From assembly GCF_008831285.2 (NCBI RefSeq), contig NW_022205108.1, forward strand, positions 1 to 64,000: a stretch of 64,000 nt of DNA, read 5' to 3'. The notes under the pieces are model-generated. The model made no database searches. It was not told the DNA's origin and was given only the letters and a program-made list of their open reading frames with translations. This DNA comes from Nymphaea colorata. Taxonomy: Eukaryota > Streptophyta > Magnoliopsida > Nymphaeales > Nymphaeaceae. Of the stretch, positions 1 through 56,490 are shown one piece after another (within the stretch, counting starts at the first letter, position 1; the number at the start of each line of letters is the position of its first letter). The position numbers were made by a program, and so were the translations under genes.

Positions 1-88
1 CCCAACCCCAACCCCAACCCCAACCCCAACCCAACCCCAACCCCAACCCCAACCCCAACCCCAACCCCAACCCCAACCCCAACCCCAA
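1..88. repeat. C4A2 telomere, left chromosome end
   Basis: About 15 tandem copies of CCCCAA run from the first base to about position 88 and then stop abruptly at unique sequence. The C-rich strand reads 5' to 3' inward, as expected for a true left end, so the window starts at a natural chromosome terminus. One repeat near 30-34 is CCCAA, one C short. That may be a real variant or a sequencing error. This repeat is the Tetrahymena/Paramecium type, not the C4A4 of spirotrichs. Confidence 0.97.
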
Positions 89-270
89 ATCTTCAATTAA
101 AATATATTTATTAATCAGGATCCATTTATATCTATCCCTTTGAGTTACTGTCCTTTAATAAAAGAGAAAGTGGGGAAGTTTCCAGCCGACCCCATGGTGG
201 ATACTGGAGTTGTGTTGATGGTGGATATTGACATTTTTGCAAGGTTTTGAGGGTTATAAATAAGATTTAT
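89..270. promoter_or_regulatory. subtelomeric spacer and presumed promoter of the first gene
   Basis: About 180 bp of unique, moderately AT-rich sequence lie between the telomere and the first ATG. I see no gene, no subtelomeric repeat family and no clear motif. By position it must carry the promoter and 5' UTR of the glutamate dehydrogenase gene. Confidence 0.4.
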
Positions 271-1770
271 ATGATCAACAACATCCTCAAGCGGTCAGCC
301 TTACTGACGCACCCCACCAGGTATTCCTTCGCAGCCGGCGCCACCTTCCTCAAGATGGTCGAAAGCTTCTTCGACCGCGCTGCCGTCCACACCGGCATCC
401 GCACCGACGTCCTCAACTTCTACAAAAAGGCAGAGAACGTCGTCAAGTGCAGCATTCCACTCATCAGAGGTCCAATTTCCCTATCCAGACAACGGCACCC
501 TTGAAACCATCTCCGCTTACCGATGCCAGCATAAGACCCATAAATTGCCCACCAAGGGAGGAACCCGCTACGCTGAGAATGTGGATATTTAAGAAGTAGA
601 GGCGCTCGCCTGCCTCATGTCCATCAAGTGCTCCATCGTCAACCTCCCCTACGGAGGCGCCAAGGGAGGAATCTGCATCAACCCCCGCAAGTATTCTCCT
701 CGCGAGGTTGAGACACTCACCAGACAGTACTCCGTTCGCCTCGCCAAGAAGAACTCGATTGGAGCCGCCGTGGACGTGCCGGGACCCGATGTGGGCACTG
801 GCGAAAGGGAAATGAGTTGGATGAAATCAACATATCAAGCATTCTACGGATATAGGGACATCAACAGCGATGCCGTCACCACTGGCAAATATCTCAACCA
901 GTTCGGTATCAGCGGAAGGACTGAATCCACAGGATTGGGTGTCTTCACCTGCGCCAAACAGCTCCTCAATAATGAAAAGATTGCCAAGAAGCTCAAGATC
1001 AACACAGGATTGAAGGGAAAGACCCTCATCATTCAGGGATTCGGAAACGTCGGCTACTGGGCAAGCAAATACTTCACTGAGGAAGGCTCTAAGTTGGTCG
1101 GAGTCGCCGAACATGACGGCAGCATCTACAATCCTAATGGAATTGACTACCAGGCTCTCAAGGACTACATCGTCCAGAACAAGGGCGTCAAGGGCTTCCC
1201 CGATGCCGAATACTTCGAAAAGGAGGACGCTATCTACAAGCCATGGTATTTTCTATCTAATATAGCGACATCTTCATCCCGCCGCCCTTGAAATGTCAAT
1301 CAACGGCAACAATGCCATCGTTTTGAGTGCAAGATCGTCGTGGAGGCTGCCAACGGACCCACCACCATTGAGGGCGAAAAGATTTGCCTTGCTAAGGGAT
1401 CAGGTTCCTGCCTGACGTGCTGTGCAATGCTGGAGGTGTGGCAGTCAGCTATTTCGAGTGGCTGAAGAACCTCGAGCACGTCAATCCCGGAAGGATGTCC
1501 CGCAAGTGGGAGGAAAAGACCAAGAACAACCTGCTCGACGTCATCAACGAGGCCACCGGACTCTCGATCAACAAGGAAGACCTGCTCAAGGGTGCCACTG
1601 AGAAGGACATCGTGCATGCCGGTATTGAGGAGGTGATGACCCAAGCCACCAAGGAAGTCATTGACATCTCGCTCGCTCGCAAGGTGGACTTGAGGACAGC
1701 TGCCTACATCAGCGGAATCACCAAGATCCATGAATTCTACACCCTCTCAGGCATTCCTGGCTGCGAATGA
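271..1770 (+). CDS. glutamate dehydrogenase (Glu/Leu/Phe/Val family), frame-disrupted
   Basis: This enzyme would deaminate glutamate to 2-oxoglutarate, probably in mitochondria: the ATG at 271 opens a short basic leader (MINNILKRS). Family landmarks are clear: the substrate-site stretch NLPYGGAKGGI, the following VDVPGPDVGTGEREM, the Rossmann turn IQGFGNVG, and CDIF followed by PAALE and NGPTT. The end is GCE-TGA at 1768-1770. A 20-nt intron at 1246-1265 restores KP-C-DIF. Besides this intron the frame must change near 455-475 and again near 1285, 1315 and 1405. The last three each look like one missing base (for example CCC written as CC). It is either a decaying terminal copy or, more likely, a correct gene with consensus errors near a chromosome end. 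In-frame TAA/TAG stand where Gln is expected. Family assignment is secure; intactness is not. Confidence 0.85.
1246..1265 (+). other. 20-nt intron in glutamate dehydrogenase
   Basis: GTATTTTCTATCTAATATAG, GT...AG, exactly 20 nt. Removing it joins 'AIYKP' to 'CDIFIP', the conserved glutamate dehydrogenase order. It is the first of a large set of 20-nt introns in this window. Confidence 0.85.
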
Positions 1771-1833
1771 TTGAAGCCCATCTATTCATCCATTATTATC
1801 TACACATCTAATATCAATACTTATTTCAGGAGG

Positions 1834-2670
1834 ATGTTTATCACTGCTCAACTGAGAGAAACAAACAAGAAGGTCAAAATATAGGGCATCAATAGTTACG
1901 CTGAGTTCATCGCCAAGATAAAGGCCACCTTCAAACTGCAAGAAGAGGAGATCACCTTCTACTACTATGAGGATAATGAGAGGATTGATGTTGATAATGA
2001 CGACAGTTTTGAGTGCTATAAATAGGAAGTGAAGAAGCCAAAGATCATCATCAAACTGCCTGACGAGGATTTTCTCAACCAAAGCTTTTTCTAGAAGTCC
2101 GCAAAGTCCAACAATGAATCAGCAATACTGTCCAAACTGAGTGAGGAAAGCACAGTCCCCGCATAGATCAAACGCGAAACCAGTTTCAAAAAAGAAAATA
2201 AGACCGAGCTCAAACCAGAGCAGACAGTACCTGCTAGCCAGGAGGCGAAGGTGGAATAAAAGGCCAACTTAACAGTGCATAAAAACATCAAATGCGAGCA
2301 CTGCAAGTCATAGGTTGTGGGGGTACGATGGAAATGCCTCGATGAATTCGATATTGACATCTGCAACAGGTGCTATGAATCAAAAGTCCACAAGCCGTCG
2401 CACACCTTGCTGAGGATAGAAACCGAAGACTACCTCTCCAAGCTCAACTATATAGACTCCATTTACAAACTGTTCAATCCCAAGTTCGAAGAGGGACCCT
2501 CCACGCCCGACCAGCCAGTCAAACCGTGGATCAAAGAAGAAGATATCCTCGAGAGCAACCCCGAAGCAGTCAAGTAGATATGGAACGCCTCCAGGGACTT
2601 GGCTGAGAAGGTGGCGAGAGATTACGATAGCTGGGAGAAGGAGTGGGAGGCCAAAGGCTCAAAAGCGTGA
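1834..2670 (+). CDS. PB1 and ZZ-type zinc finger protein (p62/NBR1-like)
   Basis: A 278-aa open frame with TAA/TAG read as Gln. Residues about 1-80 look like a PB1 fold: a basic start (RETNKKVKI) and an acidic loop (EDNERIDVDNDDSFEC), the pattern that lets PB1 domains bind each other. A charged linker follows, then a ZZ zinc finger around residues 155-200: IKCEHCKS, WKCLDEFDIDICNRCY and the H-x3-H of HKPSHTL. PB1 followed by ZZ is the architecture of selective-autophagy receptors such as p62 and NBR1, though no LIR motif or UBA domain is obvious here. It starts 64 bp after the glutamate dehydrogenase stop and has no intron. Domain calls are strong; a role in autophagy is inference. Confidence 0.75.
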
Positions 2671-2758
2671 TTTGTGCAACAGAGCATGATTATTAGTCTG
2701 ATATAAGCAAGATTAAGATTTGCATTAATTTTTATTAATAAACTGTTAAATCATCGGC

Positions 2759-3649
2759 ATGAACGAGGAACTCAAGCGCATCAAATCCAAGGACTTTACG
2801 CAAATAGACGAGAAGCTTTACGATGACCTGTCGAGAGCCGACAATTTGACATCAACTCTGACTCAGCTCTCGGACTTCCAAAGGTTTTTGATGGAGCAGA
2901 TCACCAGTCTCAACCAAAATCCCCAGAATAACACCTCGCGCCTCATCGCCAACAGCATCGCCAGAAACTTCGACCACCTCAAGGAATCTCTCGTCAAATG
3001 CTCCAGGATCAAATAGAAATGCGAAAAGTCCAAGATTACCACTTTGAAGGACCAACTTACTTCGCTTCGCTAAGAGCTCAAATAAGCAAAAAATGCCATC
3101 AAGAGACAAGTCAAATAGGCTGGATCCAAGAGCAGCGAAATAGTTGGAGCATTCATGCAAGACATGCTTGCAAAACTCGAAAAGTAGAGAAAGAAAAATG
3201 ACTAACTGGCCTAAAAATATCAGACAATCTTAGATTAAAACCAGCAGCTCAAGCAGGAAAACTAAAAATTGAAAAAAGCAACAGCTTTGGAAAGCAAGAA
3301 AGAGGTTCAATTTATGCCGTCCAAGGTGTATACTGAGTTTAATTACCAAACACCTCTAAAATAAACGAACTTTATGGAAAAAGCCAACTCGAATTTCGTA
3401 TCTAGAGATGAAGGATGGAAGGTAACTCGAAACCACATTTCAGAAGGCCTACAGAACGATCCTATCGAAAAAAGAAGCAACTCCTTAAAGAGGCAAACAT
3501 CTAACCATGAGTTATCGAGAAAATCACATATAAACTGCTTACGAGATAAGGAGAACGAAAGCCTTGCCTTGAAGAGCAAAGGAGTGGTCTTTGAAGAACT
3601 GAAAAGAGGAAAATCGAAGCAAAAGATCAAACTTTTCAGCATGATTTGA
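2759..3649 (+). CDS. coiled-coil protein, unknown
   Basis: A 296-aa frame that standard-code translation breaks into several pieces. With TAA/TAG as Gln it is continuous from ATG 2759 to TGA 3647-3649. The first 140 residues have leucine and charged heptad spacing typical of coiled coils (ELKRIKSKDFTQIDEKL; LKDQLTSLRQELKQAKNAIK). The rest is Lys/Ser/Asn-rich and probably disordered. I recognise no catalytic motif. It ends 45 bp from the stop of the convergent NOC4-like gene. It could be a cytoskeletal or basal-body component, but this is only a guess from composition. Confidence 0.7.
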
Positions 3650-3694
3650 TACTAAGTTATTTTTTATGGATCATTAATCATTTATCAAGAGTGC

Positions 3695-4929
3695 TCAAAT
3701 GTAATCTTCGAAAGCTGGAATTTTAAACTATAGTTCTCCATTTTCTAGTGATTCGGCCAAAGATGCCATCTTGGCCTCGTTGAGGGCCCTACAATCGATC
3801 TGGCCGAACTATTCGATCTACAAATAGTCGATTTTATTCATGTTTTTGGAGAGCTCCTGCACCAATACCCGAATTTTGTGGTTGTAGTGGTACTTCAGGA
3901 CCTTGAGTTCGGGGATTAACGGAAGCTCGTCAAGAAGTTTTCGATGCTTTTTGGCCAGATTGACGATGAAGGAGAGACTCCAGAAGGCGAATTAGCTTTA
4001 TTATCCTGGCAGCTGGCGGATCAAGAGATGAGCGAACGTGCTGATCGTCTTAAATGGCACGCGTGAAGAGCGAAGAGCAGCTTCAAGAAGCTTGAAAAAA
4101 CGACGGCTGTTTGGCAACTCATAGATAGAATAGCCACCCTCGCGCTGCCTGACTAATCTTTCAAGTTTTGGGTAAAATTCTTCTAGCTATAGGCCATACT
4201 TCCCCACCAGCAAGAAGATGCATGATAGAACTTAGATCTGCAGTGAAGAATCGTTGGCAAAGCGATCGATGCAGTTGTTGGAAAGGATTAGCGGGTTCTG
4301 AAGCTTTGACAAAACTTTCTCTCCAAGGTTGTGGTAGATATTATGAAGAAGCTCCTTAGAAACTTTAGAATTGGCAAGAGTGGTGATCAGCAACTTTTGG
4401 AAACCTGAATTAAAAAATCTCTACTTTTTTTGTAGGGCGCATGAAGGTCTTCAGGAAGATTGAGTTCGCTAAAGCGAGGAAGGTCAATCAAAATCTTTAC
4501 GATTAATTCTACCTTCCCCTCATCTTCCTTTTCATTCAGAATAGCCAATTTCTCAAATGCGTTTATCATTAAGTTGGCAGGCCATTCTGACAAATCTCCT
4601 TCATTCTCAGAGATGATATCTATGAATTTTTCAGTCAGAGTATCCTTTTGGCTGGAAATACTGAAAACCTGAGAAAGCAGCTAAAATGCTTCACTGTCAG
4701 GCTGGTTCAAGCATATCTAGACAACAGGAGTAAAGATGGCTTGCAGTTTGTTATCCCTAAACTTGCTGATTTCTGGTCCTTGGTCAAAGGACTTCATAAG
4801 TTCCACGATGGGCTTGAAGGAGCGAGCTTGGAGCGTGCCTAGTGCGATCGTTATTGCTTCGTTGAGGAGGTTGATTTTGGAGGGGTGTTTGGCGATCAAC
4901 TTGCATAGTTGATTTATCTTTTCGCTCAT
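3695..4929 (-). CDS. NOC4-like nucleolar complex protein (CBF/MAK21 domain)
   Basis: A 404-aa protein made of two exons joined by a 20-nt intron (4405-4424). Its C-terminal half matches the CBF/MAK21 pattern of NOC4, the partner of NOP14 in nuclear export of 40S precursors: a phenylalanine-rich FFKLLEAALRSS block, then FKTISTFAHLLIRQLPG and FWSLSFIVNLAKKHRKLL, resembling the RFFxLLDxxLxS ... FIYNLLKRHP order of NOC4. The N-terminal half is helical and repeat-like (KINQLCKLIAKHPSKINLL). Length is a little under the roughly 500 aa of human NOC4L. The ATG at 4929 lies about 50 bp downstream of the stop of the neighbouring gene on the same strand. The domain family is fairly sure; NOC4 rather than another CBF protein is probable. 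Confidence 0.65.
4405..4424 (-). other. 20-nt intron in the NOC4-like gene
   Basis: On the minus strand GTAGAGATTTTTTAATTCAG, exactly 20 nt, GT...AG. Without it the frame hits TGA four residues later; with it the CBF-domain frame continues to the end of the gene. Confidence 0.85.
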
Positions 4930-4979
4930 ATATTACTATTATAATAGAGATGGGAATACTTAAAAATATAAAATTAGAT

Positions 4980-6721
4980 TCATTTCTGCCTCTGGGAACT
5001 CGTCACGAGTATCTTCTACCGCAACAGCCGCTTAGAAGACTAGACTGCAGCCATTTGAACCGATTGCTTCATCTGCTGCGGAATCTATCTTGGCTCAGGG
5101 TTCATTGGAAGGAATGACTGATAACCGAAATTGCGTGGAGAACGTGAAGTGGCTGGGGAATGTGGATTTGGAGTCACGTAATTGACGTGGATGTTCTTGG
5201 GGTAGAATTATTGGGGCTTTGGAGAGATAGGCGTGGAATATACGTAGTTGGGAGTTTGAGGAGTGGGCATATAGTCTTGAGGAATGAGCTAGTTTCCATA
5301 GCTATTCAGCTGGTAATGCTGTCTCAGCTTTTTGTTTTCAGCCGTGCCTAGCTTGTGGATGTTCTGCTGGTATTTGAGCTTATCTTCCTATACATAGTCG
5401 TTCCCTCTATTCTTTGCCTATTTTGCATTCTGCTCCTACTTGCTCATGAAGGAAATCTTGATGTTGCCTGATAAAGAAATCGATCTTGATTTTCTATTGT
5501 CGCTCTTTTCCTCGATGATGTTTTGCTGGCTTGAGCTTTTGACCGTGTTCGGTTGAGTCGCGAATGGGTTATGGGAATGAGGCCGAACATAGTTAGGGTC
5601 TCGCTTCTAGAGGTGGTTAGACTGCTTCAGCACGAGAGGGATTGGCTGGATGTTGATGTGCTTCGTTTAGGGAACATGAAACTTGATGCTTGGTGTAAAT
5701 TGGTGAGAGACTGGGGAAGGAGGGTTTACAGTGGGAAGTTGATGCTGCATTTGCATATTTTATGGCTGGACCACGATGTAATTGTGCTGGTTAAACTCGT
5801 ATTTAAAATTGCCGCCGATTCCGCCAATAGCGAGATGGTGCGGTTGTGATTTGCTATTAACTAGTTCCTTATTCCCCTTACCCCTATCACTATGCTTACT
5901 CATTTTACTCTAAGTGGTGAGAAAGTTGTTTTACCTTCTTGGCTTTTTGTGATCTGTAAGCTGCTCTTTGATGGGAGTAGCAGGCGTGAGTGCATACTCA
6001 TTCGTTGCAAATATCAAATTTTTTGATGATTGCACTTGCTTTATTGGAGTCCTGAATTGTGCCTATGGAGTCACAACGTAATCATGGTTTTTGGCCAATG
6101 GCTTTATAGGCGTTATTGTTTCTTTCGCATATACAGGCTTGATAAAATGAATGTTGTTAGGAGATAACTACTTACTGGTTTTTTACTAACGACCGTGATT
6201 TTTGCTGTTCAATGACCCAGTCGACTCTAGCTGAAAGGTAAAGCTGTCCATTTTAGAGTTTGCCCTTAAAGGCGCATTCTGGAAGGCTAAAAAACGTAAG
6301 ATTTTTGAAAAAACTGTTCTTTTTACTTTTACTACGATGTTGGAGTAAACTTAACTAAGCTTCTCTAATCCCATCATTAGAAGATGGTTCTGCTTGTTAA
6401 AGTATGGCTTATGCCTAGATTGAGTCTGTAGATATGGCGAGTAGACTGACTGCCGTTCTTACTTCAATTTCTAGAATGCGCCTTTCATGAGGCTGTATCT
6501 TTTGCTTCTGATCTTATCTTCCCAGTGCGGGCCAAGCAAGTTCTTTTTCTGAAAGATACTCTTGATCCAGCCAAGGATGATCTCACCGTCAGAGCGACTA
6601 TTCTGCAAAAATTACGCCATTATGGGTTTTGATCTGCTATTAGGGGCCAAATTTTTCTAATGGCTGCCTTTTTCCAGTGAGTTTCTATCAGAAATTGTGT
6701 GTATCTCTTGATGGTCCCCAT
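4980..6721 (-). CDS. Gln/Pro/Ser-rich protein, unknown
   Basis: From ATG 6620 to TGA 4980 there is a continuous 546-aa frame using many TAA/TAG codons as Gln. The first 100 residues are compact and basic (GEIILGWIKSIFQKKNLLGPHWEDK). The remainder is low-complexity, rich in Q, P, S, N and H, with repeated TP motifs (TPATPIKEQ, PTPQTPNY), the look of a disordered phospho-regulated protein. An upstream frame from ATG 6721 (MGTIKRYTQFLIETHWKKAA) joins it if one base is missing near 6628 (CCC for CCCC), giving about 580 aa; I favour that longer form. No family recognised. Spacing to the NOC4-like gene is 50 bp. Confidence 0.6.
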
Positions 6722-7128
6722 GATAAAAAGTTTGATATTCGGTAATGTGCTGTTATTGATGATTAACAAATGAAATTTTTCGAACCGGATTCGGTTTGGG
6801 AAGTTGAATGTAAAGTTCAGAAAGCATGGGTACGGCTTCCATTGTTTATGCTTATGTTTCACCCTTTTTATTTTTCTCTATTGCTACCTTATACATTATT
6901 ATTAATTTACCAAGAAAAAATGCAGCTTACCAACCCAGAAGGCCAAAAAATATATAATTTTGATTATGATTTGAAAAAGAAAGCAAAAGGAATCACCTAT
7001 GAATGAACTTTGGACTTTTGGTTTTGTTTTTGTCTATAGATCTTTTGTGGATATTTCAAGCAAGCCTCAAAAGTTTGGATTTAAATGATCAAAGCTACCC
7101 AATTTAAAAAGTATAATAATTAATAGCG
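6722..7128. promoter_or_regulatory. divergent intergenic region
   Basis: About 400 bp of AT-rich DNA between two divergently transcribed genes. It is expected to hold both promoters. A 78-codon plus-strand frame (6770-7006) lies inside it but has no supporting feature. No repeat or RNA gene was seen. Confidence 0.35.
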
Positions 7129-8651
7129 ATGATCTGCTACTTGGTTTTAATCTTGCTGGCAACGCTATCGAACACGCAGAACAATCCTCCTTTTGCTGAC
7201 CCGCACTGCATCAACGTTCAAAAAGACTCAAACATCTGCGTCTAATGCCAATCTTACTACTACTTGGGAAGCGACTCGATCTGCCACCCATGCGCCTAGC
7301 ATTGCAGAAAATGCCTATCGCCCAGCCAGTGTCTCTAATGCGACCCCGGAAGATACGTCCAAGGGAATTCCTGCGATTTTTGCCCCTTCGCCAGCTGTAA
7401 ACGGTGCACTTTCACGGAATGCCTGGAATGCTTTTAATATCATCTGCTGATACAAGCAGAGGGGTCGTCTTATTGCTATAATTGCGCTAGACTTAATTGC
7501 GCAACCTGCCAGGAGAACGGAAATTGCCTCACTTGTCTCACAGGGTATTACCAATCTGGTCCCACCTGCATCGTCTGTCCTGATAAATGCTCCAACTGCA
7601 CATCTGGCACAGAATGCACCCGCTGTTTCGATGGATATTACCTTGCTTCATCCCCATCGAAGGATTGTCTTTCCTGTTCTGCATTCAACTGTCTTGCCTG
7701 CTAAAAGAATAAATGCTTTAGCTGTCTTGACGGTTTTCACCTGATGGGATCCTAGTGCATTAGCTGTTAGAAACCGCACTGCAAAGAATGCACAAAGGGT
7801 AATTGCATTTAGTGCCATACTGGCTATTATCTGGAGAGAAATGGAACACTTCTTTAATGCTCACCCTGCAGTAAAATTAATTGCATTAATTGCCAATCAA
7901 GTGGAAATTGCCTTCAATGCGCAGGTGGATATTACCCTGACAATGGAAAATGCATTACATGCAGTGTTCAGAACTGCTAATATTGCAACAAACTGGAATG
8001 TTTAAACTGCAGGCCAGGATTTTATTTGGATGATTCAACCTGCAAGCCATGCAAGATAAGCAATTGCAGCACATGTGACTCAGCTGGATCTTGCTTTAGC
8101 TGCATAGAGAGTCACTTCTTGATCGACAATCAATGCGAAAAATGCCCCATTTCCAATTGCAACATGTGTCGCGAAGACCTCAAGAGTTGCATCATCTGTG
8201 ATGATGGTTATTACCTATCCAATCAAAAATGCATTCAATGCTCCAACCAAAATTGCCAATCATGTTCCCCCATAACCGGCGAATGCCATGTGTGCATGAC
8301 CAATTATTACCTTTCCTAATCGAAGCACTGCGAGGTTTGCAAAGTCAAATATTGCAAGATATGCCAAGCAGAAAGTAAATGCTAAACCTGTAATGAAAAC
8401 TACTAGTCAAAAGATGAAGGAAAAAGATGTGATATGAAGCTTATGTATGTATAGAAGGACGATTTTCCTTGGTGGTTCTATACGCTAGTCACTGTTGCCG
8501 TCTCAGGTAAGGCATTTCTTACATAGTTATCGTTGTTTCACTGATTATCTATATCTATCGATTGTGGCTAAAGCGTAGCTTGGAGCGACCAGGCGCCCCC
8601 GGTTACAACTACGCTGAGCTTTCTGATCCCCAGGGTCGATAAATGATGTGA
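7129..8651 (+). CDS. cysteine-rich single-pass membrane protein with furin-like/GFR repeats
   Basis: A 500-aa protein with an N-terminal signal peptide (MICYLVLILLATLSNTQ), then a long extracellular array of CxxC modules of about 40-45 residues: C-x2-C...G-YY-L...C-x2-C-x3-NC-x2-C. At least ten modules are visible. A transmembrane helix follows (WWFYTLVTVAVSVIVVSLIIYIY), then a short cytosolic tail ending in an acidic NYAELSDP stretch. Ciliates have large families of such surface proteins. A 20-nt intron at 8507-8526 splits the transmembrane helix; without it the helix and tail are lost. TAA and TAG are read as Gln in several repeats. It may be a surface receptor or adhesion protein; ligand unknown. 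Confidence 0.8.
8507..8526 (+). other. 20-nt intron inside the transmembrane helix codons
   Basis: GTAAGGCATTTCTTACATAG, 20 nt. Its removal joins VTVAVS to VIVVSLIIY and makes one hydrophobic helix followed by a basic stop-transfer segment. Confidence 0.85.
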
Positions 8652-8693
8652 TTTGATTGATCATAAATTGAAAAGCAAATGTAAACACGCAGA

Positions 8694-11600
8694 TCATTCC
8701 GATTTCATCTTTCTGTCTTCTTTGAATTTCTTCTCAGCGTCTCTGAGCTCTTGCAGTGCCTTGGGGTATTCTTCTTGATTGAAAAGAGAAGGAGCGCCTT
8801 TATTAAAACATATTTACATTTGTTGATATACTCCAACATGTTGGCATTAGTTGTGATATGGATGCAGATTGTTGTCAAATTTTATCCTTTGATGGTAGAA
8901 AACGCTCTTTTAACGAACTCGTGTTCATAATATGAGCCGATACGTCTTGGGTATAAGAAAGTAATGACGCATTCCCTATATCATTATCATGAATACTTAA
9001 TCTTGAGGAAGTAATTGTCAGGTCCGAAGTCTTTTATTTATTAGGAAACGCCTCCTCCCAATCGAACGATAGTATTCTACATAAAGAAAAATGTACAATA
9101 AACTCTGGATCTTTGGGCTTGGTAGCTGCCTTATCAAAATGCAACTGGTTTCCTTCCAGATTCAGGTTTGCAGTTTCTTCAGGATATTTCTTTTTGAGAT
9201 AAAGGTAATAGATGGTGTTAATAGAATGGGGGGTGTTTTTTTCTTGCTGGAGGAGCTAATTGTATCTTTGGGAAAATTCCTTGACAAAGCTTGATCTAAC
9301 ATCAGACTTAATTTGGTTTTACAGCATAAGGAAGAAGTAAAGCCCTGAATGAATGCTCCTCTTGGCTATCCTATCAAGACTCTTTATTTCTTCCTACTTA
9401 AAAGCGTAGTTGGTAGAAGCTAGACGGACCAAGAGCTGATCGTACTGTATCTCGCTAATATCGTCCCTACGCTCTGCGAAATCAACAAGTTAATTGTAAT
9501 ACTCACGAGGATTGAGGCCAGGCTGGCTGATAATGAACTTAATGAATTCCATGTGGGTTTACATAGAGTAGAGTCCAATTCTTTTTCTGAATTCTTCGAC
9601 AACTTTTTCGCTAAATTTCTTATACTGATAGAAATTGTAGGTATTGCTATCGATGGCGCTTTGGCAAATGCCGACGAGGTCAATCTTGTCAAGGTTTTTC
9701 ACTTTTTCAACGAAGTTGTTGAGGATTTATGCCAAGATGCGTCGACCACAAGAGTGCCTTTGATGCTTGTAGAGCAGCAGATAGTTGTTGAGGTCTCTTG
9801 GGTGCGCATTACTAATGATCTCGATGATTCTCTTCTCATTCTCAATTAAAATATTCTCGAGATTGGTGTTGCTGAAGACAACGGTGAGAGTGCTCTGAGT
9901 TATTCTTTATATTTTGGGCGTGTATGTATAGTCCTTTATGTATTGGGCGCGGCTCCTCTCAATGAAGTTGAGGCTTTTTATTTTATCCAAACTCACATTT
10001 TCCAAGGATTTCTTTGTTAGGAATTACAACCGAAGAGCAGCAGAAATGATTTCTCCAGTTAGGCGTTGCCTGATAGGAGTGATCCGGTCAAGCTGGGACA
10101 GCAAATGTTTCAAGAGTGATCGATAATTAGTCTCTAAATTATATCGTTTATAGTTCCTCGTAATGTACTTTTCCATAACTGAAAGGAAGATGGGAATTGC
10201 CTCTGTCTCTGCCAGCACATCTAGCCTTGAAATTAAAGAGTGAATAATCTTAAAAAGAGATGATTCTGAATAGCTGTCAAGGGCTCCACCTATAGCTAGC
10301 CGATTATATTTATTGACCAAGTCAACGATGCAAGAAATACCCTTCTTGTGCTTGCTTTCCAGAACGGGGTGGACTTTGCGAACAGTAAGCTGGAGAAGTT
10401 GACGATTTAGTTCGGTGCGCTTGTTACTGAATTATTCTTGGTGGAAATAGTGAGAAATAAGGCTAGTGAAGTCTTCCAAAGTTATGGCTGCATCATGAGC
10501 CTGCACAAAAGCGTTGAAATTTTTGTTGTTTCGACTGCTTTCGTGAATGTAGCTAAAATAGAAGGCTCGATAGCTCAGTGGAAGGGCTTACGAGGATACA
10601 AAGGGATTAGGTATCTGGGTGAGTAGCTTTGAGAAGGCTTCATGGAAATCCTTTAATTAAAGACTGTATTTTGTCAACCTGCGACACAAGTCAATGAATT
10701 GCTGTGGAGTGGTGACGGTTTGGCTAACGCGTTCCTATACTTGTGCAAATACTGCTGCAGCTTCAGGACTTTCCTTAGCCATATGATGAGAGATAACGCC
10801 CAATTTGAAGAGAATCTCTTCTTTTAGTGATGCGACATCATACTGTTGCAATGAGCTAGCGAATGAAGAAATGTCAAAGCGACGGATGGCCAATTCATAG
10901 AGCAGGTTAGTGCTAACATGAAGTTAATGCTTCTTTATAATTTCGATAAGCTTGGACTTTAGTTGGCCTGAGAAGAAACCGTTGTTGACAAGGTTGTAAA
11001 TCTTGTGCCCGAGAGATTTAGATCTTGACGTATCAGAACTGCAGTAATTGCTATAGACGTTGAGAAAAGCAAAGAATTTTTATTGTTTGGCGCTTTCTAT
11101 GTTTTCGAGTGGAATTTTATCGGCAATGTAGCCGAAGATCTTGAAGACGGCATCAGGTTAGAGATCTGTCTATCCGTTATCGTGGATTTCAGCAAATACA
11201 TTATTGATAATTTCTTCGTAGATGCGGTAGAAGCCGTTGAATTTGCTATTGAAATCCCCTCGGATGATCTCGTATATGCTGTCTTCCTCGAGATCGGTGA
11301 TGTTGTCTGCCACTTTTTGAGTGATCAGCCTTACCAACGCAAACTAATCACCATCCATATCCAGAAACTACATTCTGTTCAAGCTGACTGCCACCTTCAC
11401 CAAGTCATGCAACTTTATCGAGCTTAGCTGCTCGGCCACTCGACGAAGAAGGACCTGGCGGATCTTACTCTCAACTGGAGTCAGTTCCGGTCGACAGGAC
11501 AAGCAGTAAAGCAAAAAGGAGGTTTGATTGTTGCTCAAAGGCACGCGTCCCTGAGCTACTCCATATTCTAAGATCTGCAATATTTTTCCTCCAACAGTCT

Positions 11601-12152
11601 TGCACTCTTGGCCATTGCGGAAGTACACCATTTCATTATAGGCGTTGATTAGCTCTGCCAGTTCGATTTCTTCTGCCTTGCGTTCCCGGATAAGGCTTCC
11701 ATATTTGCTGCACAACTTGTTCTTGAGGTTCATGAGGCTGCTCGAAAAAAGACCCTTTGTCTTGAGGGCGCGAAGCACTGAGAGAATGCTGAGGATGGCT
11801 GTATAGAGAATATCTTTACTCTTTTCTGTGTAGGCAGAAACGTCTAAAGTTTAGAAGTTGGTGACTAGGAGGCCAGCCTTATCAAAGCTGAGTCTGCTCT
11901 CACGGTCATTGATCAGCGAAATAAGATGCCTGCTTATGGATCCCAGCAGCTCACCTGAAAATTCTGGTTTGTTCTGCTCAAAGACTTGATAAAACTCATC
12001 AAAGCTCCTGGCAGCGAAGATCCTACATGGAAGAGTGAATACTTGGCCTGAAGAGGATTGAAATTGGGAGAGGAGGCTTGAGCGAAGGAGGCAGTGAGTC
12101 TCAGGGAGGGATTTAGAGGTGCTATTTTGGAGAGGAAGCGAACGATGTGCAT
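8694..12152 (-). CDS. large helical protein with mitochondrial-type leader, unknown
   Basis: Five exons encode 1125 aa. Introns: 12023-12042 (20 nt), 9077-9096 (20), 8976-8996 (21) and 8798-8817 (20). All must be removed to keep one frame, and the total is an exact multiple of three. The start MHIVRFLSKIAPLNPSLRL is basic, Ser/Leu-rich and without acidic residues, as in mitochondrial presequences. The body is almost all helical with leucine-rich segments recurring every 35-40 residues, like pentatricopeptide, OPR or RAP-type RNA-binding proteins of organelles, but I find no convincing repeat consensus. The C-terminus ends in a charged helix (EYPKALQELRDAEKK). It starts divergently from the coiled-coil gene at 12411. 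Likely a mitochondrial RNA or ribosome factor, by inference only. Confidence 0.7.
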
Positions 12153-23009: not shown

Positions 23010-24732
23010 ATGAATCCTCGCTATCTTAAGAAACAGCTCCAGACACCCAACATCAACTCTTTCAACACCCATAAAAATTAAAATAGCAGTCTTGGACGCA
23101 CCGAACGAAAGTCCAGTAACGGAAGCCTCAATAAAACCCCTCTCGCTGATGTCACCAACAATCAGCTCGAGTTCAAATCCCAGAAAAAGTTCTCAGCCTA
23201 CGAAATCCCGGCTCAGTGCAGCAATGAAGCATCAAGGCCCGCCCAGAAAATCTCAAGCTCAAGCATATCGGCCTCGAAATGGCTGGACAGCGAAAAGGAA
23301 ATGATGGAGTTCATACTCAACTTGAAGGCAAAGAAGAATGACCAAAAAATCAACAAAAGTAAGAAAGTTACTGAAGGATTTGAAGTCGACGATAGGAGGG
23401 AAGAAACTGAATAGTTTTTATGCAACAAGATGCTGTTTATCAAAAAAATCGAAAAATACGAAAAGGAAGCCATCAGCTGCTTCTATGACAAGGATTACTA
23501 GAGATGCTTCGGCGAATTATCGAAGGCAGAGACACTCATTCGCAAGGAAAAGATAGAGACAGTGCAGCATCAACTATACATCAATTACCTATATTCTGAA
23601 TTTTACTACAAACTCAACGAGTATGAAAAGTGGAAAACCTATCTCCAGAAAGCCAAGCATTACACCTCCAAAATCAATCCGTATCTATCGCATCACATAG
23701 AAATGAGTCATAGCAGATGAGATAATACATCATGAATGTTTCGGCTTTGGAAATTTGCCTAGCAGCTCATGAGGAACATTACGAAAAAGTTCTGCAACTT
23801 GTCGAGACACTCAAGGAATACGATAACATTAGCAGCAAAATCAGGAGAAGAATCAGCCAATCCCACATAACTGCCCTTCAAGTAGCTTCCAAATGATTTA
23901 GAAACTATGCCGATTCAAGTAGGCTATGCAAGCGATCGATGTCTAATGTGAAGCCTTGGAGACGGATAACGAAATCAATAGCTAGAAGCAAGCCCAGGAA
24001 ATCGGAAAACTGCTTGCTCTAAAAATTTAACTAACTGCAGAGTTTACCACTACTGAACGTGCCATCGATCTTCTGGAAAAGATAATCGGCTTCGAAGATG
24101 TGGCCAATGGATCAGTCAACAACTTCAACTACTATCACCTCAAAGTCTACCAGCTTTACGCTGAACTCATGAAGAAAGATCCAGCCAATAAACTGAAAAT
24201 TGTCTTTTTTTATTAAAAATGGGTTGAAGTCGAAACCTCCAAGAAGGAAAAGCTTAAGCTGGAGCTGTAATTATTCAAAATGTACTACGAATTTGGAGTA
24301 TATGAGAGAGCTTTAGAACTTTTCGAGGAAATTTCCTGCGAAAATGTGGTATATTTAGGCCCATAATATCTCTATATCTTAGCCAGCATCAAGCATTCCT
24401 ACGGTTAAAGAAAGGAAGCAGTGAGTATTATGGCCAAGATAATCGATATCTGCCAAGACGAATAGGCAAGGATGCTCAATTCCTTCAGGATCCTTTAATT
24501 TGATTTGGATGAGGAAACCCGCTAAGAAAGAGAAAAGAACCTGGAGAAAGGATTGAAGACCTATAATGGTGCCAATTACGACTCACTGGTGGAGCTTTAC
24601 TGCAATTACTTAAGACAAAGGAACGAAAACGATCGAGCAAGCCAACTTTCCAACAAACTTAAAAAAACTGCTAACTTCCAGGAATACTTTTTCATCAATC
24701 AAAAATCAGAGAAAAAAAGTAATAAAAAGTGA
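23010..24732 (+). CDS. TPR-like helical repeat protein
   Basis: Three exons (20-nt introns at 23681-23700 and 23882-23901) encode 560 aa, an exact multiple of three. The first 100 residues are Ser/Asn-rich and disordered. From about residue 160 on, paired amphipathic helices follow each other with TPR-like spacing: LYINYLYSEFYYKLNEYEKW, AAHEEHYEKVLQLVETLKEY, MYYEFGVYERALELFEEI, YLYILASIKHSYGQRKEAV. The G-x-Y-x-x-A motif of TPR helix A/B turns is seen in FGVYERALELFEE. TPR proteins act as scaffolds; the partner is unknown. The C-terminus is a Lys/Ser-rich tail. Confidence 0.65.
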
Positions 24733-28057: not shown

Positions 28058-29107
28058 TCATGGCTTGAATCCACTTGCCAGCATGCCCTGCCCGGAAAGA
28101 ATGCGGGAAATTGGGTTATTTTCGCTAAGCCGACCGTTGATTTCAAAGGTGTTTCCTAGAATGGAGACAGACTTGCGAACCGACTCATCGTTGTTGCGAT
28201 ATCTGAAGAACAGCAGCAGGAGCAAGACCTTCATAGGGCAGCATTTACCTTAGCGATCATGAGGATGATGACGAACATATACATGAACCTGAGGAAGGGC
28301 GTCTGGATGGTAGAGTGGTGAGTGGGTGGGTTGGGATTCCAGTAGGGCTATATAGGAGGGATTTTACTGAAGCTTGGCAGATGACCCAGAGGAGGTCGAA
28401 GATGATGGAGACTAGGAGGTTGGCCATGATGAACTTGATGTAGTACTTATCGAAGTAGCCAAGTAGCACGATGGCGAAGATGGAGATGTAGACCAGCGCG
28501 TTGTAGAAGTGGTCCTTGTGGAACATCAGGATCAGCTCGATCACGAACATGATCACCGTTAGCAGGAAGGTCAGCTTCAGAGAAGTGCTGTTCTCGCGCG
28601 CAGAAGGAACATCCGCGAAAATACCACTGGCGCGACCAGAAAAGAACCCGCTGCCTTCCATGCCCCCGCTGGAAGCTCTACTGGCTTAAAACTTCTCCTT
28701 TGATTCCCTCACGTAGCGAGACTCCTGGGGAGCTGAGATCTGGAAGGGCAGAGAGAGCAGCTTCAGGTCGTCTGTGTATTGGAGCAGACTCTCCTCCAGC
28801 TCCTGCTTGCGAGATGGATCCAAATTCCAGCCGCCAGCTCGCCCTCGCACTTTTGAATGTTTTCCTTTAGGATACCCTGAGCACGGGCAAGCAGGCCCAC
28901 ATAGTTGCGCAAGGTGACACTACCATCGCTATTCTTCTCAGCTTCCAGCCACAATTCTTCAGCAACCTCTGGGTTGAACTCTCTTAATCCTGCGTTGCGT
29001 AGGCATATCTCGTCGAGGGTGCGCTTCATCTCGATTTCGCTGAGGGTGGAGTCCTCCCTGAGCTTGAGCTTCAGGAACTGATCCATGATCTTCGAGGTAT
29101 TCGACAT
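28058..29107 (-). CDS. EF-hand-like N-terminus plus multi-pass membrane protein
   Basis: 336 aa in three exons (20-nt introns 28348-28367 and 28229-28248), with one missing base near 28822-28824 restoring a single frame. Residues 1-80 are helical and acidic with an EF-hand-like loop (EAEKNSDGSVTLRNYVGLL). The C-terminal half has about four membrane helices: LTFLLTVIMFVIELILMF, ALVYISIFAIVLLGYF, IMANLLVSIIFDLLWVI and FMYMFVIILMIAKVLLLLLF, then a soluble tail ending MLASGFKP. No transporter signature is seen. It could be a small calcium-responsive membrane protein, but calcium binding is unproven because the loop departs from the canonical pattern. Confidence 0.6.
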
Positions 29108-30136: not shown

Positions 30137-31262
30137 ATGACAGCCACCAAGAAAAAATAACAAGTCCTAGCAGAAAACCTATACGAGATTCCCTCTTGCA
30201 CCATCTGCCTGCAGGAACTGGTCGAAGAAATGGGATGCCTGGACTGCGGACATGTCTTCCACATTAGCTGCATCAGCCAGCACTTTGAATATCGAAGCAC
30301 CTGTCCGAACTGCCAGAAACGAGCCTGCCTCAAAGAAATACGGCCCGTGGTCTTCCCCCTCGCGCTAAACACCAAAGCGAATTCACGGCTTCACGAGATC
30401 CTCTCTGCACTAGATGGCTCGCAAGTCAAACAGGTCGAACATCTGCTCCATGAAGTCAAGGTAGCCACAGAGTCTGTAGAGAGGCTGAGGGTGTCTCTGG
30501 CTGATAGTGAGAAGCAACTAGCTGCTCAGAATAAGCTAGTGGAGGGACTGCGGGAAGATTTAGGACGCAAAAAGAGTGAGATTGAGGCGTTGAGGAAGGA
30601 GAACCTAAAACTGAAAAGGAGGTAAAGGAGCAAGACGAGGAGATCAAATAGAGGGAGAGGCTGGAGGTCAAGCTCAGGCTTCAGGTGGATAAATTGATTA
30701 AAGGCGAGCAGGAAGTTGAAAAGTATAGAAAATACAGCAGGATGATGAAAGAGAGGTCCGAGCAAATGCTGAGGTACAGGGAAAGCTTGGAGCAGTCAGG
30801 AACTCCTCCAGATGAAATGAGCAAAATTTTCTTTGATATGCTCTGCATGAAAAACCTCGAGGACCTAAAAACCAAAGAGAAATTGAAGGAGTACCCTTAG
30901 AGAATAATCGAAAAGGACAACGAAATCAAGAAACTCCAGGGACGATCGACGAGCTGAAAAGGGCTCTCAAATAGGCAAACAGAGAAGCAGCAGACAAGCG
31001 CATCGTTTAGCGCCAAAAGTACGATGATCTCAAGGCCAAGTATCGGCAGCTGATCGAGAAAGCGAAGCAAAAGGGAGTGAAGGAGAACGACATCCCCGAA
31101 ATGGAAGACAGCCAAGGCTTCAACAATATCGGCAAAAGCAGTCTGCCAATCTAAGAGCCAGTGGTCCAGCAAACCATGCGAAAGCACGTCTTCAATCCGG
31201 GATCGACCATCGGCGGTTTCTGCAAGAAGAAGAAAGATGACGTTCTCAAATTTATGTTCTGA
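30137..31262 (+). CDS. RING-finger coiled-coil protein, TRAIP-like
   Basis: 375 aa after restoring one base at 30614-30617 (AAAA) and one at 30939-30941 (GGG). The N-terminal RING is CTICLQELVEEMGCLDCGH, FHISCIS and CPNCQK, a RING-H2-type set of eight ligands. A long coiled coil follows (LADSEKQLAAQNKLVEGL; KYRKYSRMMKERSEQML). The C-terminus ends FNPGSTIGGFCKKKK-like. RING followed directly by a long coiled coil is the layout of TRAIP, a ubiquitin ligase acting at replication forks, and the post-RING KRACLKEIRPVVF segment fits that family loosely. E3 activity is likely; the TRAIP name is tentative. Confidence 0.65.
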
Positions 31263-31375: not shown

Positions 31376-31446
31376 GGTCCTATGGTGTAATGGTTAGCAC
31401 CTTGGACTCTGAATCCAATAATCCGAGTTCAAATCTCGGTAGGACC
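31376..31446 (+). tRNA. tRNA-Gln, anticodon CUG
   Basis: 71 nt with a perfect 7-bp acceptor stem (GGTCCTA / TAGGACC), a D-arm (GGTGTAATGGTTAGCACC), a 5-bp anticodon stem (TTGGA/TCCAA) around loop CTCTGAA with anticodon CTG at 31409-31411, and the TΨC arm CCGAGTTCAAATCTCGG. No intron. A T7 run right after the 3' end is a standard RNA polymerase III terminator. It decodes the ordinary CAG codon; the TAA/TAG-reading glutamine tRNAs must lie elsewhere. Confidence 0.95.
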
Positions 31447-31453
31447 TTTTTTT
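31447..31453 (+). terminator. RNA polymerase III T-run terminator
   Basis: Seven T residues directly follow the acceptor stem of the tRNA-Gln gene, the usual pol III stop signal. Confidence 0.85.
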
Positions 31454-31512: not shown

Positions 31513-32735
31513 TCACCCATCCCCTCCGGTATGGTCTTGGTCGGCAAACAGCTCCATCATTCGGAACACTGGCTCGCCCTTGCCGTTGAGGTTGATGATC
31601 AGTCCTTCAGGCAGCAGCGTCTCAATCATGTGGTAGATGTAGGCCTTAAGCTATGGCTCGCATTTCTAGCCAAGCTGGAGGGGCATATCGAATACCACAT
31701 CGCAGGTGCGCTGGTGGCGGAGCTCGAATTTGTGCGTACTGTTCTGTTTTAGTGAAAGGGGTACTTTTTTGAACATGAGAAGGGTGCGTTTGCTGGCATT
31801 GAAGTATCGGGAGGGGGAATCGGCGATAAGATCGCAGGGATTGACGTTCTAAAGCGACCTGATGAGTTGGTTGAGGTCGATTTCTTCATTTTCCGTCTTG
31901 TCCTCCCTCTTCTCTTCGCTAATGGGCTTCTGCCTTGGAGAGCGTGCAAATAGCTTAGCCTTCTCTATGTCGAAGTTGATAATTTCGAAATTTTCAACGT
32001 ATAAGAAGTGTTTTTGCTCCATGATGGCCAGCATTTCCGACACGTGCTCCTTGGGCGTCCACACAAACACGATCCCCTTGCTCATCAGCTTGGTCGATTC
32101 CAAGCGCACCTGCTCGAAATCCTTGATCGTTTGGCCGGGTTTTCCCCAATCGATGTTGACGAAGATGGCCTGGACGTCTTCAGCCAGTGCGGCTAGATTC
32201 TCGCCGGCGATGCTTTTGGTGAGCTTGACCTGTTGGAGCTGGGCGAGAGTGAGCTAGTTTTATCCGGGGAGATAGTTGACGGTGATGGGGAGGATTTCGA
32301 GTTGGTTGCGCCATTCGAGCAGTCCTTCCACCTTGTTGTTGGTGATCTGTTTGCTGCGGAAGGGAGCGCCGTACTTGCGCCTGGGACGGTGGCCCTCGGA
32401 ATACTCCTCACTGTCGTCGTAAAGATAATGGTTCCTGCGACGTCTGGGGTGGCAGTCCTCCTACGATAGCTGCAAAAATAAAAAAGAGAGGAAAGTGGAA
32501 GGTGAGTACCTCGTAATAGGCGCAATCCAGGCCATCTTCCAGCGGGTAGGATCCCATGAAATAATCATCGTTCCTGCATAGAACTAAAATTACTTGGGCT
32601 GCTTTCGTTCCCTTGCGCTTCTCCTCAGCTCTGGCTGGGGGTCTCCTTCAGCGAGAGGGCTTTGGCGTTTGGTCGAGGCCTTCTATATTATAATGAGAGA
32701 TGAGAAAAAAGAATCTTTAAATGGGCACTTACCAT
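31513..32735 (-). CDS. MT-A70 family protein lacking the catalytic DPPW, MTA9-like
   Basis: 370 aa in four exons: introns 32683-32732 (50 nt, directly after the ATG), 32574-32593 (20 nt) and 32470-32509 (40 nt). The C-terminal half is an MT-A70 fold: AIFVNIDWGKPGQTIKDFEQ, SKGIVFVWTPKEHVSEMLAI, a RTCDVVFDMPLQ strand, and MIETLLPEGLIINLNGKGEP near the end. Where active members (METTL3, MTA1) carry DPPW this protein has NIDW, so it should not bind S-adenosylmethionine productively. That fits a pseudo-enzyme partner such as METTL14 or ciliate MTA9, which pairs with MTA1 to write DNA N6-methyladenine. The N-terminus is basic and disordered. The partner role is inference from the family; no MTA1 lies in this window. 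Confidence 0.7.
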
Positions 32736-33051: not shown

Positions 33052-34538
33052 ATGCTTAAGCAAAATCGCAAAACTCCCAAATACACGCTCATCTGCTCCC
33101 CGTCTTCCGAGGCAGCCCGCCAACCGTGCCTGATAAAGAAGGATAGCCTCTATGCCAGGAGCAAGCTTTCATCGCAAAAGAGCCTTTTTGCAGTAACTCA
33201 GCCATAAAATTAGAAATAATACGAGCATCATAAGTCCAGGAGCAAGTATGAGTCCTTCAAATCCTTGAACAGTGAAGTCACCAAGGAGATAAACGATATC
33301 CAAACCGAATTAGCGTAATGCATGTCATCAATCACCGTCTAATAAGGCAAAAATGTATTTCTCTCATCTATCCAGGCAGTTTTCAAGAGTCTAATCACAT
33401 CCTACGATCAGATATGAGGGAGATATAGTAAAGCGAGAAGCATGTGAAGGAAGTATAAACAGAGTAAACCTTAAAACGAGCTCACAAGATCGAATATGAT
33501 ATTGAGCAAATTTTACAGAAACATAATGAAGAAATAGCAAAGATAAATAGCCTCAAGGAACAGACTGCCTCGCAAGGACTGATAGAGTGGTCTTTTCTAA
33601 TCTCTTCCGCAAGATTGAAAAATAAATCAAATAACACCAAGAACAATATAAAGAAGCCATACTCAAAACTGAAATTTCCGTGAGAAGAGAGCCAGCAAGC
33701 AAATGAAGATAGCTTAAGATAGCCTTTCGATTAACCGGCATGAATCAGAGACAAAAGACGAGAGCCTAAGGTTATCAATCAGCAAGGCCAGACTCAATGG
33801 AGAAAGTCGTTTGTTTGTTACAAATGTTGCTAAAAACTTAAAAAAGTCTCATTTGTTGTTAAAAACCATCGATTAGATACGAGCAGCAGCAACAATCCCA
33901 CTTGTCTAAATTGATGCAATTCAAAATCGACTAAATCGAAGCAAACATTGAAAAGCTGATCAAGGTAAGCGAATGCTCCAATCACTCATAGGCAATCAGT
34001 TTTTATAGCAGCGTCCTAGAAGATAATGAGAATCTCAGTCAATGATCATTAAGAGTAAAAAAAGATTGGAGAAATTGAAGATGAGATCGAGAGGATACGA
34101 AAAGAGAAAAAGATCAGTTAGTTCTATGAGACTAGGCAAATTAGCAACCTTTAAACTCTCGCAAGCGTTAGGAAAATAAGAAGTTCAAGCAGACCATAGA
34201 TGATGATAGCGAAATCATCGATGAGGATGTTGAAATTATTCGGGAATATTCGATCTATTGTAGATTCCTCGTGACAAACCCATAGACTATCTCATATCCA
34301 ACTAGGAAACCTTATCAATTTTATAAGATCAACTCGATAGTATTACCCTGTAAAAGCCTATAAAAAATCATAATCAAATACCATTTGCACAATCGGTTCT
34401 GATCATAATTTGGACTCAATTTTCACGAAGATGTAGAAGCTGGACAACTGCGACCGAATCCTAAACAAAAAGCAGTTATACAGCTAGTATACAAAGGAGG
34501 TTGGCAAGAGTAAAAAATCGTTAAGATATCGAAAATGA
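33052..34538 (+). CDS. coiled-coil protein, heavily frame-disrupted
   Basis: A coiled-coil gene that can be followed from ATG 33052 (MLKQNRKTPKYTLIC) to TGA 34536-34538 only by changing frame about eight times. Some changes fit introns: 23 nt starting GTCTAATCACATCC near 33400, and 19 nt GTTAAAAACCATCGATTAG near 33860. Others look like one missing base in runs (TTTT near 33593, AAA near 33706, AAAA near 34175). Clear coiled-coil stretches are HKIEYDIEQILQKHNEEIAK, QFKIDQIEANIEKLIK and IEDEIERIRKEKKISQFYE. It is either a pseudogene or a badly called consensus. Its break density is the highest in the window, together with 45-47 kb. Function unknown. Confidence 0.5.
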
Positions 34539-34656
34539 CACCGACTGATTCATTTTTATGTTTTGTTGCAATCCATATCTAAATCCCTGTGCAAATTAAC
34601 ATAGAGAATATTGATTTTTAGATTAGGTAATCATTGATTAATAAAATAAACTGTTA

Positions 34657-35609
34657 ATGTTCGAAAACATCTAAAACGGAGAAGTTATTGCCCTCAATCC
34701 CACCCTTGAAAAACAATACAACTAAATCACGCCCAAGAACTCTATTACACCCCTTTCTCAGCCTCCGCCCAACTCAGAAAAAAGGCTACTCAAAAAACTT
34801 GGCCCTTATGAGTTCTCGATGGACCAGAAAATAGGCAGCGGGATGTCAGGTGACGCTTACGTCGGCATTAACACATAGACGCACGAGCTTGTTTGCATCA
34901 AAATCATCGATCGGTAGATCTTCAAGACCATCGATCAACAGCTCCTGCTCGACAACGAAATTCGATGCCAACAGGCATGCAACTCAGAATACACAATCAA
35001 GATCTACGACATCTTTGATACCAGCTCCTTCTGCTTCATCATCACGGAGTTTTGTGAGGGAGGAGATCTGTACAGGTGCCTGAGAAGTACGCAGAATGGA
35101 CTGTCTGAGCTACTAGTTATTGAGTTTGGAAGGGAAATTGCGTTCGCTTTGAAAAAGCTCAAAGATGCCAAAATCATCCACCGTGACATCAAATCTGAAA
35201 ACATCTTGATTCAAAAAAGTCACTGTAAATTGGGAGATTTCGGATTCGCAATCGAATAAAAGTAAGTGTATCATAACTTAGAAAACTTTCCCAATAAAAA
35301 AAGTTCAATCTTGGCTCTCCACTCTACATGAGCATTGAAGCTCTTGAGTTCAGCCACTACAGTTACGCATCCGATGTATTTTCCTTTGGAGTTGTCCTTT
35401 ACGAAATGTTGCACAGATAGTCTCCTTGGTAATGTGCAAACGAGCAGGAGTTGCTTGAAAAGATGAAGAGCGAGGAAGTTACGTTCAAGAGCGGAGTTAG
35501 TGATGAGCTGAAGTCTCTGATCAGGGGCTGTTTGAGCCAGAAGGCTGAGGATAGAACTACGATTTAATAAATTTTGGATCACCCCATCTTCAAAAACACG
35601 CACCTATGA
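34657..35609 (+). CDS. Ser/Thr protein kinase, ULK/ATG1-like
   Basis: 310 aa, two exons joined by a 20-nt intron at 35262-35281, intact. All kinase subdomains are present: the glycine loop KIGSGMSGDAYVG, the catalytic lysine in LVCIKIID, the catalytic loop IIHRDIKSENIL, DFG in KLGDFGFAIE, the activation-segment end GSPLYMSIEAL in place of the usual APE, and SDVFSFGVVLYEML. The activation loop has no extra insert and the protein ends at the C-lobe, so it is a stand-alone catalytic domain with a 45-residue N-terminal extension. The GSPLYM motif points to ULK/NEK-like kinases. Active by all visible residues. Confidence 0.85.
35262..35281 (+). other. 20-nt intron between DFG and the activation segment
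   Basis: GTAAGTGTATCATAACTTAG, 20 nt. Without it the kinase frame is lost between GDFGFAIE and GSPLYM. This is the clearest single proof in the window that such tiny introns are spliced. Confidence 0.92.
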
Positions 35610-56465: not shown

Positions 56466-56490
56466 ATGTTAAGTAATATCTTACCGCCAA

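Follow-up and report, generated by a model that had tools for sequence, protein, structure and literature searches.

Very probable 20-nt spliceosomal introns at the telomeric end of a chromosome from a peritrich-type ciliate

We analyzed a window of 64,000 bases, positions 1-64000 of contig C601 (NW_022205108.1), which belongs to the Nymphaea colorata assembly GCF_008831285.2 (407.8 Mb, 783 contigs). We regard the window with high confidence as the telomere-bearing end of a macronuclear chromosome from a peritrich-type ciliate, with genes that carry U2-type GT-AG introns of a near-constant 20-nt architecture and whose splicing is predicted. These 20-nt introns are very probably real. A sequence-only reading of the window had proposed that spliceosomal introns cluster tightly at 20 nt, and this remains the best explanation in the light of a second ciliate, of a branch-point signature that appeared unprompted and of protein homology. 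In most of these introns the layout would be GTA at positions 1-3, a putative branch-point A at position 15 (A15) within the motif Y-N-A-Y and the 3' AG at positions 19-20.

Genes were predicted with a coding Markov chain in which TGA is the sole stop, introns are bounded by GT..AG and the prior on intron length is flat. In the window, 20 of the 83 introns predicted in this way were exactly 20 nt long, and every other length occurred at most four times. When frameshifts were allowed, 13 of 44 introns had 20 nt, compared with 1-4 for fifteen mock end pairs. Many of the predictions at other lengths are noise of the model, since mock end pairs yielded similar totals. We then allowed a single intron length at a time (13-35 nt were tried), imposed only GT..AG and recorded the gain of the model in log units. 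In the window the gain was 238.4 at 20 nt, followed by 91 at 29 nt. Both results bear out the earlier claim of an excess of GT..AG segments of exactly 20 nt that keep the reading frame. At the lengths typical of heterotrichs the gain in the window was 0.0 (15 nt) and 37.8 (16 nt), and the broad peak near 25 nt of the Paramecium type was not seen in the length runs. Raw GT..AG distances in the window showed no excess at 20 nt (176 on one strand and 191 on the other, with 149-226 at other lengths); the 20-nt signal therefore appears only with coding context.

The same length stood out in other contigs of the assembly. In five of them the one-length test gave a gain of 624 at 20 nt, followed by 269 at 17 nt, and in the flat-prior run 20 nt was the leading length in three of the five (C32 with 4/24, C34 with 12/49 and C35 with 10/57). 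Across all six contigs (244 kb) a position matrix with uniform length prior placed 89 of 374 introns at 20 nt, and a partly learned length prior 118 of 404. Eleven held-out stretches of 10 kb, of which five lacked ciliate coding and one consisted half of N, yielded 10 of 84 introns at 20 nt versus 0-7 for mock pairs, and nine of these ten carried A15. Intron phases were even (32, 33 and 32 in one count and 10, 13 and 13 in another, for phase 0, 1 and 2). Keeping the 20-mer led to a TGA in 93 of 102 cases (median 35 codons) and in 35 of 36 cases (median 50 codons), respectively.

In the one-length runs position -6 of the 20-mers, corresponding to A15, was an A in 24 of 31 cases in the window, in 74 of 108 in the five other contigs and in 101 of 106 in the second ciliate described below. 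At other lengths the shares were 56/189, 209/690 and 142/337 (Fisher p versus the 20-mers 6e-7, 5e-14 and 2e-25, respectively). The third intron base, likewise not imposed, was A in 99 of 106 20-mers of the second ciliate and in 21 of 31 of the window. In the second ciliate position 13 had no G and was C or T in 89% of the 20-mers, and position 16 was T in 79%. From this conservation A15 is likely the branch point, and an A at -6 is also where the branch point of heterotrich introns lies.

The second ciliate was found through a relative of the IFT70 protein, 92% identical in its best segment, on DYPS01000031.1, part of a metagenome-assembled genome (MAG) labelled Desulfosporosinus sp. SulCav_GS09_5_32_142 (DYPS01); an IFT70 search of viral_contigs gave no match. 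In this MAG (CCCCAA)3 was present at 139 forward and 124 reverse sites (overlapping), and those listed were mostly at contig ends. The public bacterial MAG thus labelled contains many ciliate macronuclear contigs, telomere-capped, with TAA and TAG as sense codons and with ciliate genes, beside bacterial-looking contigs. We kept 19 of the 43 contigs of at least 5 kb, namely those in which open frames require TAA and TAG to be read as sense codons. The other 24, among which were the ciliate contig L030 and some telomere-bearing ones, were excluded, and so were 33 pieces below 5 kb. In the flat-prior run on these 19 contigs (293,988 bases) 36 of 106 introns had 20 nt, with A15 and GTA in 35 of 36 each, and lengths of 18, 21 and 24 nt were absent, while 19 nt occurred once, 22 nt twice and 23 nt once. 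A count over 18 contigs (231,698 bases), for which the all-N contig L050 had been dropped beforehand, gave 28 of 72 introns at 20 nt, and GTA and A15 were present in every one of the 28; with six mock end pairs the count at 20 nt was 1-2. The gain in the one-length test was 664 at 20 nt and 147 at 29 nt, the next best length. In 209 kb of predicted coding sequence the model placed a single frameshift.

Three syntenic genes could be compared between both ciliates, and all seven intron positions were common to them. The lengths in the window's species and the second ciliate were 22/20, 20/20 and 20/20 in IFT70, 20/21, 20/20 and 22/20 in USP14 and 19/20 in the third gene. A15 was kept in 13 of the 14 introns. 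In three 20/20 pairs the interior was identical at 15 of 42 positions, versus 76% identity in the IFT70 exons. The 22-mer of each 22/20 pair retained A15 and had its extra length in the tail, which hints that the distance from donor to branch point may be constrained more tightly than the tail.

Homology across the predicted junctions was examined in proteins that carried a 20-mer; those with frameshifts, touching contig ends or lacking a 20-mer were left out. This gave 59 proteins with 96 20-mers, of which ten proteins were searched in Pfam, and the support is therefore biased toward genes having a 20-mer. In the searches with this protein set TAA and TAG were translated as Q where E is right; the gene models were unaffected because only TGA serves as stop. 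Counted over the ten proteins and glutamate dehydrogenase (GDH), 17 predicted junctions fell within a match to Pfam or PDB, twelve of 20 nt and the rest of 19, 22, 22, 23 and 46 nt.

Within the window, a protein kinase gene (34657-35609) has a 20-nt intron at 35262-35281 on the plus strand. As previously stated, it lies between the DFG motif and the activation segment: the spliced form matched Pfam Pkinase over residues 54-305 with 185.8 bits, and the retained form reached 109.4 bits with the match ending at residue 202. PDB matches of the kinase include ULK1. In the GDH gene (271-1770) a 19-nt intron with A at -6 (470-488, plus strand) and a 20-nt intron with GTA and A15 (1246-1265, plus strand; flat-prior and 20-nt-only runs) were both aligned gap-free to human GLUD2 (6g2u), at the junction IR|DNG and restoring ..PCDIFIP.., respectively. 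The gene shows, by eye, apparent single-base losses in C/G runs, and the model placed frameshifts at 1293 and 1400; the 19-mer may therefore be a 20-mer that is short of one base by assembly.

Further support came from other proteins. A cyclin scored 104.9 bits in Pfam when spliced and had no match with the 20-mer retained, and the CH domain of EB1 scored 43.8 versus 36.5 bits. Both junctions of EB1 (introns of 23 and 20 nt) were gap-free against 3jak, and so were the three junctions of IFT70 (22, 20 and 20 nt) against 8bd7 (E 1.8e-243). For USP14 (20, 20 and 22 nt) against 5gjq the second junction was gap-free, and one-residue gaps were located three to four residues from the first and third. 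Four more 20-nt junctions lie within Pfam matches; two belong to an EF-hand protein, and a Myb protein and a sugar transporter have one each.

The genetic code was derived from three syntenic genes of one region, the codon count from two of them. For TAA in the IFT70 pair, all 23 cases had Glu in the other species, and for TAG six of seven; in the USP14 pair the counts were 13 of 16 and 3 of 5. Against 8bd7 the second-ciliate IFT70 scored 814.9 bits when the codons were read as Glu and 790.4 bits when they were read as Gln. A code with TAA and TAG as Gln (table 6) was rejected, since the codons face Glu and IFT70 scores higher with Glu. According to an excerpt of PMC10553269 UAR as Glu belongs to Peritrichia and evolved once, while in the oligohymenophorean PL0344 UAA stands for Lys and the median intron length is 57 bp. 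With TAA and TAG as Glu and TGA as stop we therefore call the organism a peritrich by its code, which points to Peritrichia (Oligohymenophorea).

The telomere of C4A2 type named in the sequence-only reading is present as (CCCCAA)n at positions 1-87 (no strand assigned), at the start of the contig, and the repeat recurs on small contigs of the assembly. Among the small contigs listed it is found at both ends of C19 (26 kb), C32 (53 kb), C34 (41 kb), C35 (43 kb) and C45 (45 kb). Small contigs of this kind are thus multi-gene molecules capped at both ends, as expected for macronuclear chromosomes; on C601 the telomere is seen at the start only. In our reading, the small contigs with telomere caps represent macronuclear chromosomes of a ciliate that was co-assembled with a larger genome. 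Positions 1-10000 of a further contig, C720, also open with (CCCCAA)n, yet the ciliate coding model predicts no gene in these 10 kb.

Several observations weigh against a uniform 20-nt architecture or against its attribution to a ciliate spliceosome. In the flat-prior run 20 nt did not lead in C19 (0/4) or in C45 (3/27, behind 17 nt with 5), and in the held-out stretches the mock pair CT..TC gave 7 introns at 20 nt versus 10 for GT..AG. Ten of the 31 20-mers of the 20-nt-only run in the window lacked GTA, A15 or both. For the motif-scoring model the A15 share of 92% is in part circular, position -6 being among the features it scored. In the window's species five introns of other lengths (19, 19, 22, 22 and 23 nt) are backed by homology or orthology, and of these the EB1 23-mer (A at 17, T at 15) and the two 19-mers (A at 14) break a strict 14-nt spacing. 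A predicted 46-nt intron (42138-42183) lies inside a Caps_synth match. Ciliate small nuclear RNAs were not found in searches that covered U2 and U6: the U2 family and U6 core searches matched large contigs only (the U6 core motif with 22 matches in the assembly, all on large contigs between C1 and C11) and a U2 core pattern gave no match. With one probe, ciliate 18S or rDNA was found neither in the window's assembly nor in the MAG of the second ciliate. The initial description of the introns as fixed at exactly 20 nt has to be given up, as the 19-nt (470-488), 22-nt (IFT70) and 23-nt (EB1) introns are gap-free by homology; 20 nt is a sharp mode with a minority of 19-23 nt.

This minority raises the question of whether 20 nt is no more than a local peak in a broad length distribution of real introns like that of Paramecium, since Paramecium introns of 20-33 nt are given in an excerpt of PMC2633312. 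The second ciliate, with 36 introns at 20 nt, none at 18, 21 or 24 nt and one or two each at 19, 22 and 23 nt, argues against such breadth, and TAR as Glu differs from the Paramecium code; we consider this explanation improbable. Alternatively, the 20-mers might stay in the RNA, with ribosomes shifting or hopping past them by programmed frameshifting or bypassing. A length of 20 nt, being 3n+2, would resemble a frameshift in genomic DNA, and programmed ribosomal frameshifting is reportedly more prevalent in peritrichs, to judge by the title of Chen et al. 2020. However, GT..AG ends, the GTA donor and A15 are splicing signals without a known role in hopping, and the ortholog pairs of 22/20 and 20/21 nt differ in length while their ends are kept, which makes this reading very improbable.

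Still less credit is due to two further explanations, both of which we hold to be extremely improbable. At the DNA level the 20-mers could be residual internal eliminated sequences (IESs) left in the assembly, as short IESs are excised in ciliates and those of Paramecium peak around 26-28 bp (excerpt of PMC9942806). When TA-bounded excision was scored at seven lengths, the window gave 89.5 at 20 nt versus 141.3 at 29 nt and the second ciliate 445.7 at 20 nt versus 403, 415 and 410 at 17, 26 and 32 nt, whereas GT..AG was sharp at 20 nt in both. TA-bounded elimination was rejected for want of a sharp 20-nt peak among the seven lengths. In addition, several small contigs capped at both ends look like finished macronuclear chromosomes. 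In the second ciliate frequent TA pairs can straddle the real introns. Assembly indels combined with a permissive gene model could also produce such a pattern, and the apparent single-base losses in GDH and the noise among introns of other lengths would fit; the second, independent assembly, however, shows a cleaner 20-nt mode and a single frameshift within the 209 kb predicted as coding. In the gene models of all contigs 71 frameshifts were placed in 181 predicted genes, and these may be assembly indels or real frameshifting.

If the 20-mers are spliced introns, the spliceosome would remove them by U2-type splicing through intron definition. It may select a near-fixed spacing, with 14 nt from the first base to the branch-point A and 5 nt from there to the 3' end, and this spacing could stand in for long sequence signals. 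A retained 20-mer shifts the frame because 20 is 3n+2, usually with an early TGA, and nonsense-mediated decay would clear mis-spliced messages. That peritrich spliceosomes measure introns by such a molecular ruler of 14 and 5 nt is a tentative idea, which we judge possible and somewhat short of probable.

Near-fixed tiny introns are known from other systems, as given in excerpts of the literature. Introns of 15/16 nt are described for Stentor coeruleus, with the branch A at position 10 of 15 or 11 of 16 (PMC9505925), and for Blepharisma (PMC9942806). The heterotrichs share with the present case a nearly single length, GT-AG ends, and a branch A at -6 with a 5-nt tail (Stentor), but they differ in length (15/16 instead of 20 nt), in the distance from first base to branch A (9 instead of 14 nt), in class and in code. 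In Mikrocytos mackini (Rhizaria) introns have 16/17 nt, and 217 of 224 have 16 nt (PMC10245619); these are likewise narrow, tiny and conserved, but shorter, and occur in an unrelated parasite with a reduced genome. Chlorarachniophyte nucleomorph introns of 18-21 nt (PMC10245619) have a similar size range but show a length spread and belong to a nucleomorph. Tiny introns are found in other ciliates as well, with a mode of 25 nt in Paramecium (median 24 in P. bursaria) and 21-29 nt in Nyctotherus (median 23, GTA..TAG, no branch-point motif found according to the excerpt), but these distributions are broader than here. In both genera lengths divisible by three are avoided unless a stop is present, and decay of retained introns is discussed. 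Euplotes aediculatus introns peak at 26 nt (PMC10449743). The closest precedents are thus the heterotrich 15/16-nt and mikrocytid 16/17-nt introns; the latter were missing from the list of known extremes in the sequence-only reading. No peritrich intron lengths were found in the literature on peritrichs that was covered, with the genome papers of Chen et al. 2020 and Zhang et al. 2023 outside its scope, and in PMC12411067 the word 'intron' is absent. Compared with the known near-fixed tiny introns the 20-nt mode in peritrichs appears to be new, with some risk of an earlier report.

Near-fixed tiny introns probe the smallest substrate of the spliceosome. Should the ruler be true, peritrichs would be a further convergence on near-fixed introns besides heterotrichs, mikrocytids and nucleomorphs, and their introns would combine the 5-nt tail of Stentor with a loop that is five bases larger, leaving perhaps just enough room for the U6/5'-site and U2/branch helices. 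The comparison of the 20-nt peritrich case with the 15-nt introns of Stentor, in which the distance from branch point to 3' end is shared and that from donor to branch point is lineage-specific, makes the ruler idea testable. Were the ruler correct, some of the programmed frameshifting attributed to peritrichs would turn out to be 20-nt (3n+2) introns that had gone unrecognised. Gene prediction that requires longer introns would wrongly call frameshifts in these genes. This could affect reports of frequent frameshifting in peritrichs, animal assemblies in which ciliates were co-assembled, and bacterial bins that carry a wrong name.

The 20-nt-only run used 31 20-mers across the window, 21 of them with GTA and A15. 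Our final set comprises 24: these 21 without two that were doubtful by eye (50675 and 60401), plus five from other runs. The runs are the flat-prior run, the position-matrix run, the gene models of all contigs (frameshifts allowed) and the 20-nt-only run. Besides the kinase and GDH introns described above, all members listed here carry GTA and A15. Introns at 4405-4424 and 58403-58422, both on the minus strand, were predicted in all four runs. Thirteen were found in all but the position-matrix run, namely 9077-9096, 12023-12042, 15914-15933, 16137-16156, 16365-16384, 16509-16528, 28229-28248, 28348-28367 and 49465-49484 on the minus strand and 17393-17412, 17635-17654, 23681-23700 and 23882-23901 on the plus strand. 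Those at 8798-8817, 32574-32593 and 51279-51298 (minus strand) were absent from the 20-nt-only run and present in the other three. On the minus strand, 38369-38388 and 38994-39013 were supported by the position-matrix, all-contig and 20-nt-only runs, the former being taken as 77 nt in the flat-prior run. The intron at 61707-61726 (minus strand) was predicted by the position-matrix run and the all-contig models and was absent from the 20-nt-only run; 58095-58114 (minus strand) is a candidate of the position-matrix run only. Two candidates of other lengths were a 21-mer with A at -6 (8976-8996, minus strand; position-matrix and all-contig models) and a 22-mer with A at position 15 (12450-12471, plus strand; flat-prior, position-matrix and all-contig models).

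At least 22 introns of exactly 20 nt had been claimed for positions 1-35281. The 20-mers are present; the number supported is 17, comprising 15 with GTA and A15 among the 16 used there by the 20-nt-only run, and those at 8798 and 32574. In a gene at 15657-16930, previously described as a SPRY gene with four 20-nt introns, the model kept the four 20-mers, and a Pfam match to SPRY was not obtained at E <= 0.01.

The gene models at 49229-61960 require many odd introns or frameshifts, and one of the proteins is BMS1-like by eye only. A tRNA-Gln with the anticodon CTG was predicted at 31376-31447 on the plus strand, between the predicted genes at 30137-31262 (plus strand) and 31513-32735 (minus strand).

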